This document shows, one piece after another, positions 9,701 through 15,700 of a DNA stretch of 64,000 bases. The stretch is from NCBI GenBank assembly GCA_030765065.1, contig CM060985.1, positions 173,436,096 to 173,500,095 on the forward strand, in the 5' to 3' direction. The notes beneath the pieces are model-generated. The model saw only the letters and a list, made by a program, of their open reading frames with translations, had not been told where the DNA came from and did not search any database. The position numbers and the translations under genes were made by a program. Position 1 is the stretch's first letter, and every line of letters begins with the position of its first letter. Origin of the DNA: Deroplatys truncata (lineage: Eukaryota > Arthropoda > Insecta > Mantodea > Mantidae).

Positions 9701-12700
9701 GTATATAGCTTCTAGCAGCTATTCTTGCAAAAAATTGTTTTCCTATTCACTTCACGTTAATCGAGATAAACGTTTACAGAAATAGTTTCATTACACGTTT
9801 CGTTGTAGGTACAAGGGGGATAGAGGACACCAAATCGACAGTCAGATGTTTAAAAGTGGGTCGCTATATGCTGGCCTTGAAATTCCGTACTGTTTCCATG
9901 ATATTGCGGGAAGCAACTGAATGTTGCAGGTGTTTAAAAGAGTGAAGGAAGTATTGAAACAGTAAATTCAACAATAATAATACATACATACCTCGGAAAT
10001 GGCTGTCGTCCTCCGTGGTGTAGTGGTTACCGTGCTAGCCTCTAGTTTCCGAGGTTGCGGGTTCAAACCCGGCGGAGGGCGATGGATTTTTTCGGGCGTA
10101 AAGCTGGTGGTCCTGTGTCGTAGATTTACGGCACGTAAAAGAACCTCAAGCCTGATAAAGAGGCCTCTGAGCAAAATTACCGGTCTTTCACGTTCAATAT
10201 AGAATGGGACGCAAAGTACCATAGTAGTTAAAGACTCAATTTAATTTTTAATTTCGGAAATCGCTGATGCAACAAAAAGGGTTATTTGACAAATTGTGTG
10301 TATTAAGATTTTGTTTACTAATTATACAAAAGTGGTTGAGAATGAAGAGGACTTTAGAGAAACTTCAAGATACACATTTTATTTGTCATTATAATATCTT
10401 AAAATGTGGTGTTTTAATTAAAATCCTTGCACGATTTTTAAGAAAATAGAAAATATGGAAAGGTTTTGCATGTAAAGGGGGAGATCTTTAAAAAATTCTT
10501 GGTGTCGCATCTTTGGAAGATACTAAAATTAAACACCAAGTTTGGTATTAATCCTACTTTACGTTTCTATTTTCTTTATCATGTACCTAGTAGATAGAGG
10601 TCAATTTGATATCAAGATTTCACTGGAAATACATGTTTTGAGGCTCCCTGAATCCAGAAAGAGTATAAAATGTCTGTGTGTGTGTGAATGAACAGCATAA
10701 CTCAAAAACAAAAGTCGGATAAACACCAAACTTGGTACTTATGTTCAGCGTCTTCGAAGGATGTAACGCCAAGACTTTAAAGAAAATGCCAAGCTGCCCT
10801 TTACATATAACATTTTTGGAGATTTTTGGTTTTCGGAAGATATGACCAACGATTTTGACATTTAAGACACTTACATAACTAAAACGTATATCTTGGATTT
10901 TCTCAGAATAGCCTGTGAAGTCCTCTTCATTCGGAAGTAATTTTGTATAATATGTTATAACTAGCAAACGTTAAGAGATAGACGAAAACGTACTATACAA
11001 GAAATGTAGATGTCTTTAAAACACACAATTTATTTCCAATAACCTTTCTCGTGGCATCAAGCCATTTCTGAGATATGTTATTAATGGTTGGAATTGTTCA
11101 ATACCGTGATTTGTCCTTATGTTTTAAACTGTCGCTTCATTTTCTTCTTGACGTAGAGCAGCGTAACGAAATACGCACGACCTAGCCTCTTTCTTCTGGA
11201 CCGTTTACTCGGTGGGGAGTCAAACAAAGACTTCTCAAATCTCTCTTGCAGTAGCAGCACTCTCTGTCACAGCAGTCGTCACAAGCTCGCTTGGAGAACT
11301 GCAGTTTTCGTTGCACCAGAAACGCACACACTAACTTGCGAGAGCGCTCGCTTATATAGTCATTGGAAATTTCCTCAGTTCCAGAACGTTCGAGAGGCAG
11401 GAAACTTCCAGAAGATTGTGGTTATCTGACTATAATGTTTCTAGTGTTCACGCTACCGCGTCATATATCTCTGTTTATCTCTCATACCGTCCGGCGCCGA
11501 CCCTCCCGATAACGTTGGGCTATAGCCGCGGAGTTAATATACTTTGTCATTCATATAAAGTCTTGTCGATTTTCACCCGTTTCTGGTGATGTTATTGAAA
11601 CAGTACAGAATTTTAAGGCCAGCATATGATGTCCATTCTTAAACATTTGACTATCGCAGTTCCCTTTGCAACTAACGAAATGTGTAATGTAGCTGTTTCT
11701 GCAAAGGTTTATCTCGATTAAAATGTAGTAGATAGAAAAATAAGCTTTGGTAAGAATGGTCTGTGTACCGAGTAATAAACGACAGAAAATAAAGAAAGTT
11801 ATGTGAATGTAACACATCAGATTTTTTTAGTTATGCTCTACACTACATGGAACGTTTTTCTAAAAAAATGCTTTTTTATTCAGGAGACCCCAAAACGTAC
11901 ATTTTCGGTGAAATAACGGTATCACATTTTGGGTGGAATACAATACAATGCTTGTCTGGAGAGAAAGTAAAAGTAACAAACTTCGGGATTGGGAAGAAAA
12001 TCTTTATATCTTTATTAAAAAAATATCAGAAAATATTATATATATATAATACACGATGGCTAATTCTGAAAGCATTAAAACTTTAGCAGAACCTTTTAAT
12101 ATTGATGGACAAGTTGGTGCAATCCACACTGCTATTAAATATCTGTTAGTTTGGCTACATGGGTATTTTATCAGGTTCTAAAGCTGCAATACAAGCAATA
12201 GCAATAATTCAGGTTCCAAAAATAAAAGAAGTCACTGCTTGGTTAACACATACAAAATTACAAAAAGAGCACAGCCTTCCAGTGGATTCCTGCACACTGT
12301 GGATTGAGTAGTGATGAGAAAGCAGACATCTTAGCGAAAAAGGGATCCAAAATTCAAAATAAAATACAAGCAAAAGTACCACTGGAATCAGTTAAACGTA
12401 TCAAACAGAAAATCTGCAATGATCGTAATCTAAATTAACTACACATACTATATTAAATTCCAAAGGAGGCAAATTCACAAAAAGCCTGAAACCAATACCT
12501 GAACTACCCTGAAAAACATCCGTTGCCTTGTCCAGCCTTACCATTGGACGTGATTGTCTCAGTAAACACCTGCACACCATCTCCAAATTGTCTGTTACGC
12601 AATAAGGAAAAAGAAATAAATGTGGAGCAGCTTAAATCGTATCCAGACTTGACCCCAAAATATTGGGAAGCAACGAGGAGAAGGACGTTGTTGCTAAATC

Positions 12701-15700
12701 CTGAGCGTATTACACACACACACACACACACACACACACACACACACACACACACACACACACACACACACACACAGTGTAAACAGGTTGGTATTTCCTA
12801 TTGCCTAACAGAGTGTGAAATGAGAAGATGTTTGTGTTATAGTATCTGTGATGAAACATTGGTAAATTGCAAGAGTATAAACAGGAATTAAAAATATTAT
12901 ATCAATAAGGTAGAGGAAATTGTAAGCAACATTTCGGTACAAATGATAAGGAGCAAGAAAGTTGAGTGTTGATCAATGTTATAGGCTCTACTCGTAACGT
13001 AAACCTGAGGGTTGTGGTTGTAAACCTACATTCTTAAATATGTTATTTCTTATGTGTTTTGCATCTTTTGCTTTTATAGCAATAAATAATGCATGGAAGC
13101 ATGTTTTTGAATGAACGTTTTGTTGTGTGATGCATGCAGAAGTCGACGTATTCTAACCAGTTACGATCCCAGGCCCCCAAGGACGTGGTGAAGGAAATCG
13201 ATGAGGACATCCTACACTGCGGCTCCATTCAGTCGCTGGTAAGTACTTTGCTCTGGTAGACCAGCTAAGCTTGCTAGCCTCGTTCATGCGAGGAGCTAAA
13301 GTAAATTATTAATTACATCTGAAAAGTAATTATAGAAGGATAACGTCAATTGTGACAGCAAAGAGAAGATACACAGGGTGAACGTGAAGTAAATTACAAC
13401 ATGAATAATGGTTGATGTCACCTAACACTCGTCTTTAACCAGCACATTTTTACTTTCTCTGCTACTTACCTATAGCATTGCATTCCGCCCAAAACTTGGT
13501 CTATGTATGTCTGTGAACAGCATAACTCAAATGCGAAATGTAGATTAGATGACGTTTTTGTGTTGGACGTCAGCCTAAAAGGTTTATTGTGCAACCTCAT
13601 TGGAAAGGATGCCTGCATTGTTTTCCTAGATCTTCTTGGTTATATAAAGAGTAAGTCTCTTTGTTGTCAGGAATGGGCAGTAAAGAGGATGTGCGAGGCA
13701 GTTTTCTCATGCTCTTTGCGTATTCTACAGACGGGTTCATCCCTGTACAGTCCTACTTTACGTAGATGTTCCTGTTCTATCCAGTCTCAGGAGAGATGAG
13801 GGAAGGGTGTTGCGTGGGCCTAAGACCAGTTTCCTTGCTTGTCTTTGTCCAGGATAGGCTTGCCACCTGAGTTGATGTGCTTCCCTAATCCACGCTTTTA
13901 CAGAGGTTTTGGCAGCACGTGTACTGCTTCCAAACACGGGTTCAGAGCCAACATACGGTGTCTTAGTGCCTGTTTTAGCCAGCTGATCAGCTGTTTCATT
14001 TCCATAGATACCCTGATGCCCCGGCACCCACCGCGAGATGATAGGGCATTTATGCATTCCCAAACCAGTTTTGATTTTACCTAGTTTGGAGAGAGTGCTT
14101 TTAAAGCACTTTGACCATCTGTGAGGATGAGAATTCGTTTTATTATCACAACCTTTCGCAAGTCCTCTTAAAGCACAGCTCAGGATAGCAAAAACTGCTG
14201 CCTGAAAGGTTGTGCAATATTTCCCAAGACATATACTAATATCTGTCCTTGGAGATAGGCCATCTTCGCAAATGAAAGTGGACTATTGACTTTCAGAAGG
14301 ACATAAAGCCTGTCGTGAGAGCGGGGTGTGGGCTCTTAACGTACTACACCGTTTTACACCGAAGACCTGGTAGTTAAATTTGCCCTGTCGCTGTACTTTC
14401 TTCGCGACGTAAAGAAATACGCACGACGCAGCCTCTTCTTCGGAGGATCACTCGCTGGGGAGTCGAACACAAGACCTCTCAATCCCTCGTAGTAGCAACG
14501 TTTACCGTGATTCACAGCTGTTGTCACAAACACTTGTAGAACCGCATTTGATGTCGCGGTTACTAACTCCCTCACTTACTGTCCGATTCGCCAGAACGCT
14601 TGCTTATATAACCGCTAAACATTTCCACACAACATTCTAGAATGTTAAGAGACCATTCAAAATGTTCTGTATGCGGGGGGAAAGGGAAACTTCCAGAAGA
14701 TTCTGATATATCTGTCGATAGCGCTACCGCGTCTTCTTATCTCTGTTTAACTCTCCAACTGGCCAGCGCCGAAGCTTCCGACAACCTTGGGCCATAACCG
14801 CTGTGCCACAATGCGAAAATTGGACACGATGGTTTATAAAAAAAAAAAAAATCTCTCCACCCTCGATCTACCGTTAACATGGAACATTTTTGGACATTTT
14901 TGATACTCTAAAAATGGCTAACGATTTTGATTAAAATACCACATATTAAAGATATTTACACGAAAATAAAATGCATATCTTGATTTTTCTAGGAATAGCC
15001 CATGAAGTCCTCTTCGTTCGGAAGGAAATTTCTATAATCTTGTATAACTGCTAAACATTAAGCGATAGACGAAATCGTATTACACAAGAAATGTATATCA
15101 GTTTATTTCAAATAACTTTATTGTGGCATCAGCAATTTCCTATATATCCGTTATTAACGGTTCGAATTGTTCAATACTTAGTCATTCTTCAAAGTCGTGT
15201 CGACTTTTAGTTATTTTTTTTTCTCGCGATGTCATGGAAACAGTATGCAGCCTATAGCACCTAGTTCTTGAACATCTGACCATCGCTGTTTCCTTGTATA
15301 ATGTAGCTATTTCCGGGGATGTTATCTCGGTTAAATTAAACTAGATAGAAAAATAAACTTTCGTAAGGATAATTTGTATACCCACTAATAAGCGACAGAG
15401 GGCAGAGAAAGCCATGTGAATGTAATACATCATATTTTTTGAAGATACGAGTGTAAATTGAGAGAGTTGCACCCATGAATAGATTCAGGCTGCTTTTTCA
15501 ACAGCTCTTGTGAATGTATAAAAGACACATGCATCTGCCAACGAGTTTCTGCACCAGCGCACTCTTTTGAATCAGTAACTCTGGGAATAATTTCTAAAGG
15601 GCACGTATTCCCCAGATATTAGCCTGTGGGAAGCCATGTCTGCAGGAACAAAACTCCAAGAAAATGTGAATACTCAAACTGGAAGAATTCTACAGGAAAA

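Follow-up and report, generated by a model that had tools for sequence, protein, structure and literature searches.

A short, apparently non-coding mobile element with the promoter layout of a heat-shock gene is present in two copies in the window, by which we mean the whole stretch of 64,000 nucleotides from the mantis Deroplatys truncata analysed here (assembly GCA_030765065.1, contig CM060985.1, positions 173,436,096 to 173,500,095). The dispersal of the element in the genome, its ends, its target duplications, an empty site and its promoter layout were established. Its insertions are old, and the copies are most likely solo long terminal repeats (LTRs) or LTR-derived units of a Gypsy-like retrotransposon with an hsp-type promoter, a reading to which we give a probability of about one half. 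An initial annotation of this DNA had described two diverged, colinear copies on the minus strand, each with arrays of heat shock elements (HSEs) followed by TATATAAG. Both were recovered, and their HSE content is above chance in simulation. Their features are the following.

11105..11538, minus strand: copy A of the element (profile match, positions 4-455 of the 544 of the model, plus flanks)
11400..11419, minus strand: distal HSE array of copy A, 11 of 12 core bases
11378..11397, minus strand: proximal HSE array of copy A, 11 of 12 core bases, three perfect units
11365..11374, minus strand: third HSE of copy A, two units, GGAAATTTCC, 6 bp ahead of the TATA box
11351..11358, minus strand: TATATAAG of copy A
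11105..11328, minus strand: leader of copy A, which aligns with other copies
14344..14810, minus strand: copy B of the element (profile match, positions 1-469 of the 544 of the model)
14685..14704, minus strand: distal HSE array of copy B, perfect, four units, 12 of 12 core bases
14629..14648, minus strand: proximal HSE of copy B, weaker, 10 of 12 core bases
14603..14610, minus strand: TATATAAG of copy B

The two copies are 65% identical across 417 alignment columns. Copy A measures 434 bp inside its target duplications, with a shortened 3' portion and decayed end motifs (ATTAACTC... at the start and ...ATCACG at the end), and from the usual TATA distance its transcription start site would lie near 11328. 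Copy B keeps its 5' end (TGTGGC at 14810) and is 3'-truncated near 14344; its transcription start would be predicted near 14580.

As a chance control, 60 first-order Markov sequences were simulated with the same dinucleotide transitions as the 64-kb window. Five perfect three-unit HSEs were seen in the window against a simulated mean of 0.77 (maximum 3), and one perfect four-unit array against a mean of 0.017. Four of the five three-unit matches fall in copies A and B, where two of them overlap and thus make three arrays. The fifth lies outside the element, at 48827-48841.

Insertion sites, ends and copy number

Copy A splits a dispersed repeat, here called R, which is the repeat that the initial annotation seems to mean by its 'R element'. 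The relevant features are:

10603..11823, plus strand: dispersed repeat R, split by copy A
8326..9054, plus strand: R copy with an empty site at 8767-8769
14845..15431, plus strand: R copy adjoining copy B, empty at the copy-A site (about 15177)
11101..11104: target duplication ATAC (GTAT on the minus strand), 4 bp, left of copy A
11539..11542: target duplication ATAC, 4 bp, right of copy A

The R copy at 8326-9054 matches both flanks of copy A and is uninterrupted at 8767-8769, and R copies near 15.2, 43.9 and 54.5 kb likewise run through the insertion point of copy A without a break. ATAC or a close variant is found once in these sister copies, versus ATAC-element-ATAC around copy A. The claim that the first copy (our copy A) interrupts R is thus borne out by continuous copies of R elsewhere in the window. 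Copy B is not within R; it adjoins an R copy beginning near 14845. R itself is extremely abundant, with 67 matches at E<1e-8 in a 200-kb genome sample and occurrences at many places in the window, and at one genomic locus (L034:5131-7457) it is found as five pieces with 497-bp spacing.

Further copies were sought in the window's own assembly (4.29 Gb, 818 contigs). With a 200-base promoter query there were 1,654 first-look candidates; all of the 40 that were scored matched, copy A among them, mostly at 76-81% identity and in one case at 88% over 113 bases. A 517-base query, the real copy L003, gave 8,224 first-look candidates, again with 40 scored, and its 39 best matches (itself excluded) were 73-80% identical over about 290-530 bp, except for one partial match at 83%. 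The two sets of scored candidates together make 73 distinct places; sequence was read at 30 loci, at two sampled copies and across the window. About half a kilobase is common to nearly all of the 30 loci (29 plus copy A), with sharp edges outside which the loci have only scattered repeats in common. Most complete copies begin with TGTGAC and end with GTCACA, an inverted repeat of only about 6 bp. The 13 scorable loci measure 395-579 bp, which puts the complete unit at about 0.4-0.58 kb.

Of the 31 rows in which target duplications were assessed, 13 could be scored by motif at both ends; with copy A, included by hand, n=14. The 4-bp flanks are identical in 10 of these 14 copies, seven of the 10 being other than ATAT, and they agree at three or more of the four bases in 13. 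After shuffling of the right flanks a mean of 2.4 copies were perfect, and none of 20,000 shuffles reached 10. As the 4-bp length was first noticed in listings of the same loci, this test is post hoc; a profile-based choice of 16 copies gave eight perfect 4-bp duplications (p 0.010). The duplicated target is AT-rich and ATAT-like. Together, the TG...CA ends, the short inverted repeat and the 4-bp duplications point to insertion by an integrase-type enzyme. A miniature inverted-repeat transposable element (MITE) of Tc1/mariner type with a TA duplication was considered and rejected, base-by-base comparison of the flanks having given a 4-bp duplication. Separate families sharing the ends only were also considered, and in the sequences read there were just weak extra matches (E 0.011 or more; L040, L018 and L019).

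Two copies, at loci L043 and L046, were contained in a systematic sample of 200 kb made up of 20 stretches, each 10 kb long. Scaled up simply, these two events give a genome total of roughly 43,000, the Poisson range running from about 5,000 to about 155,000. The copies found are old, judging by the 73-83% identity of the 39 best matches, and the aligned rows have a median identity of 87% to their majority sequence. The initial annotation had taken the unit for mobile, dispersed DNA and had proposed a genome search for further copies and their boundaries. That search yielded many copies with sharp common edges, and its view of the unit is sustained by the genome-wide copies, sharp ends, target duplications and empty site. 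At one locus two copies of the element stand inverted and abutting (L016:605-1228 and 1226-1714).

Promoter layout across copies

HSE arrays close to a TATA box, as in heat-inducible promoters, are present in the element. The aligned copies were fetched with the promoter query and the promoter fractions are consequently biased upward. The alignment has 39 rows (some loci give two), and the promoter region is present in 32. At least three perfect alternating HSE units in a row are found in 23 of these 32, and a TATA box in 26; the exact TATATAAG occurs in 23 of 31 oriented rows. A run of three or more perfect units lies within 90 bp before TATATAAG in 16 of the 23 rows with the exact motif, and 17 of 23 have 5-6 bp between the TATA box and the final run of at least two units. 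One sampled copy, L043, has a perfect four-unit HSE; the promoter of the other, L046, lies beyond the end of its stretch.

We propose that the first third of the unit acts as the U3 region of an LTR with an hsp promoter layout, that is, HSE arrays ending, as a rule, in a site of two units 6 bp before TATATAAG, followed by a start-site region and a leader some 300 nt long that lacks a conserved poly(A) signal. Heat-activated trimers of heat shock factor (HSF) would bind the arrays, and polymerase would start about 30 bp after TATATAAG. Because a conserved poly(A) signal is lacking, transcription is predicted to read through the leader, out of the 3' end and into the flanking DNA, which in the window would mean leftward, minus-strand transcription. 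In the simplest history, heat or stress would once have driven the element's own transcription, as in ONSEN, and the copies would now persist as promoters in decay, with some perhaps inducible even now.

Class of the element

Several properties of the unit agree with solo LTRs of a Gypsy-like retrotransposon. The TG...CA ends with a short inverted repeat are those of an LTR, although degraded in copy A, and the 4-bp target duplication, perfect in 10 of 14 copies, is within the 4-6 bp that solo LTRs have. The promoter stands in the first third of the unit, and this one-sided layout fits a U3 region. The initial annotation had allowed that the copies might turn out to be fragments of a long known LTR retrotransposon. 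Their LTR-like ends and possible solo-LTR nature go part of the way towards this, while no long LTR retrotransposon was recognised next to the copies examined.

A number of observations weigh against an LTR with a heat-shock promoter. No same-strand partner within 20 kb was found among the 73 listed places, where 40 were scored per search and partners may be missed. Second copies do lie nearby on the same strand at L017 (0.2 kb away), as a fragment in L015, and in the window (A and B); these were not taken as LTR pairs because they are too close or have their own duplications. Nor was a shared internal region recognised beside the copies, in 30 upstream and 24 downstream flanks. The upstream flanks gave 26 same-strand matches among 435 pairs, 10 of them roughly level with the boundary, and the downstream flanks gave six among 276 pairs, two of them level. 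R explains nearly all of the boundary-level matches, the flanks of L001, L006, L008, L017, L026, L030, L015, L023 and L007 matching R-rich stretches of the window; the match between the L002 and L012 flanks is not explained by R. We judge such an absence of internal sequence to be surprising for LTR elements, given a genome of 4.3 Gb. One copy shows expansion of its 3' part into repeats at 59-bp spacing, an unusual feature for an LTR. As for an LTR poly(A) signal, three of 32 rows have AATAAA; among variants AAGAAA is the most frequent (14 of 32), its positions being scattered. Some LTRs do not have a canonical poly(A) signal. On the promoter side, 14 of the 16 perfect three-unit HSE matches in the 200-kb sample are outside the element and only two (one array) inside, so the element is not the sole source of bare HSE words; at least nine of the 16 lie inside R matches. 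Finally, HSE bases are conserved at 0.926 versus 0.874 for other non-CpG bases, 3.9% of slid patterns being equal or better, and this slid-pattern test on the aligned rows, themselves biased by the promoter query, does not support selective upkeep of the HSEs. Separately, four perfect three-unit HSE words occur in a 10-kb stretch without a recognised copy of the element (L039:797-7828).

It is quite conceivable, if somewhat less so than the LTR reading, that the repeat is long dead, its HSE arrays mere relics, and that no copy is transcribed on heat shock; this would be compatible with an LTR and with a DNA transposon alike. The age of all copies found, seen both in the best matches and in the distance to the majority sequence, agrees with such decay, as does the lack of demonstrated selective upkeep. 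Against it, the 16 of 23 rows with an exact TATATAAG that keep at least three perfect HSE units upstream are comparable in this to the mantis's own hsp70 promoters.

About as plausible as decay is that the unit is a non-autonomous, MITE-like DNA transposon, mobilized by an integrase-related transposase (Ginger2-like or of another TG...CA family), which acquired or evolved an hsp-type promoter. TGTNR ends are described as common to Gypsy LTRs and Ginger elements, and the latter are reported to make mostly 4-bp duplications (PMC2836005); the present element shares both features. The parabasalid IS481EU elements are likewise described with similar ends and duplications of 4 bp or longer (PMC10045372). 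Moreover, 13 of the 14 scorable copies are free-standing, each with its own duplication (at least three of four bases alike), and a transposon of this kind would account for high copy number, flanks in which no internal region was recognised, listed places without pairs and a unit without a conserved poly(A) signal. The difficulty lies in the termini, since terminal inverted repeats are given as about 40-270 bp in Ginger1 and 50-180 bp in Ginger2 (PMC2836005), versus about 6 bp here. The target differs as well, the duplicated site being ATAT-like, versus a reported preference for RTATAY in Ginger2 and for CCGG or CCGT in Ginger1 (PMC2836005). We regard such a Ginger-like transposon as a close rival to the solo-LTR reading, itself at modest confidence.

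Heat-shock genes, known systems and surroundings

HSP70-family matches in the genome number 59; five are near-complete single-exon genes, of which one contains a stop codon. Compared with the element, the upstream 700 bp of all five show no homology (best E 7.8). Derivation of the promoter from hsp70 was thus unsupported for these genes, and the possibility raised by the initial annotation that the copies descend from an hsp pseudogene found no support either. Three of the five upstream stretches have a three-unit HSE, followed in two of them (L051 and L052) by TATATA 26 bp after; the fourth (L054) has a two-unit site only, and the last 300 bp of the fifth (L055) lack any HSE run of at least two units. 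This fifth stretch is upstream of the hsp70 copy with one stop codon (G000:C4:173331360-173333174), keeps TATATA and is alignable over 131 bp to L053; the gene is possibly losing its heat promoter. Regarding small HSPs, 12 matches were located, and two 351-bp stretches near such matches have no homology to the element, a comparison that may miss promoters. The promoter therefore appears hsp-like in layout, with descent from an hsp gene unsupported among the hsp70 genes compared.

These comparisons make it improbable that the unit is part of a host heat-shock gene (its promoter and 5' leader) scattered by duplication. Its HSE-TATA-leader anatomy does resemble that of hsp genes, and a promoter of this kind also stands in upstream stretches L051 and L052, but the five hsp70 upstream regions are not homologous to it, and fixed ends with target duplications require a transposition mechanism. 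Among known repeats, the alpha-gamma repeats at the Drosophila 87C hsp70 locus are non-coding and have an hsp70-type promoter whose sequence is shared with the hsp70 promoter; the present element differs in being without homology to the hsp70 genes compared. Chance clustering of GAA/TTC words, to which the many perfect three-unit words elsewhere in the 200-kb sample (14 of 16 outside the element) might lend some colour, is refuted for the whole layout by the simulation control and by the recurrence of the same HSE-TATA arrangement in most aligned copies.

ONSEN is a full-length, active element, whereas here the copies are old and no internal region was recognised in the flanks examined. Heat-induced activation has been described for this plant retrotransposon (PMC8376061), and the likeness lies in a heat-activated retrotransposon promoter that can confer heat response on flanking genes, the promoter being a predicted one in our case. 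In Caenorhabditis, 61.4% of the HSEs of C. elegans are reported to be in Helitrons, many of which acquire HSF-1 and are near heat-induced genes (PMC6927752); as in the mantis, large numbers of HSEs throughout an animal genome reside in mobile DNA. Helitrons as described there are another class of element and have HSE clusters, in contrast to a short HSE-TATA-leader unit with TG...CA ends and 4-bp duplications. The rice element mPing is stress-inducible, and its ends, mechanism and stress elements differ from those of the present one. Both are short non-coding mobile units (PMC3782648 for mPing), and mPing can affect the stress control of its neighbours. HSE-bearing mobile DNA is thus already known, and what is new here is the combination of a short integrase-type unit, an HSE-TATA layout and a high copy number. 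In a literature search of limited coverage, no listed paper was found to be about an hsp-type promoter on a short integrase-type unit, judging by its title and the opening of its abstract.

It is tempting to go further and propose that a mobile half-kilobase cassette has seeded the genome with hsp-grade HSE-TATA promoters in their thousands, perhaps in their tens of thousands, and that intact copies fire outward together on heat shock, giving non-coding and antisense transcripts, recruiting neighbouring genes and titrating HSF. We consider this unlikely in its full extent. If intact copies are inducible, potential heat-shock promoters would far outnumber the heat-shock genes of this genome, and insertions into other repeats supply empty-site controls. 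Such a system would let one study, as a natural experiment, how a stress response is rewired by mobile DNA and how a cell copes with very many extra HSF sites; with it, the Helitrons of Caenorhabditis would have a counterpart in a second genome and in an element of integrase type.

Pfam models were compared with the plus strand at 1-9002, both strands at 9001-18002 and the plus strand at 18001-27902, and Rfam (above gathering score) and tRNA scans gave no match. One frame lies downstream of the leader of copy B:

13758..14282, minus strand: open frame with a weak RNase H match (29 residues; E 0.00029, below the Pfam curated cut-off)

This frame is a possible retrotransposon remnant. A very weak RNase H match on the plus strand at 12256-12348 (E 0.077) may be a second such remnant near copies A and B. 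A possible coding exon with splice-like borders, for which a name was sought and not found, is on the plus strand at 13138-13244. Farther along, the minus strand has a 312-residue open frame at 49162-50100, which we take to resemble a Tc1/mariner-type transposase, and a tandem array with a 119-bp unit extends over about 4.7 kb at 58957-63656.

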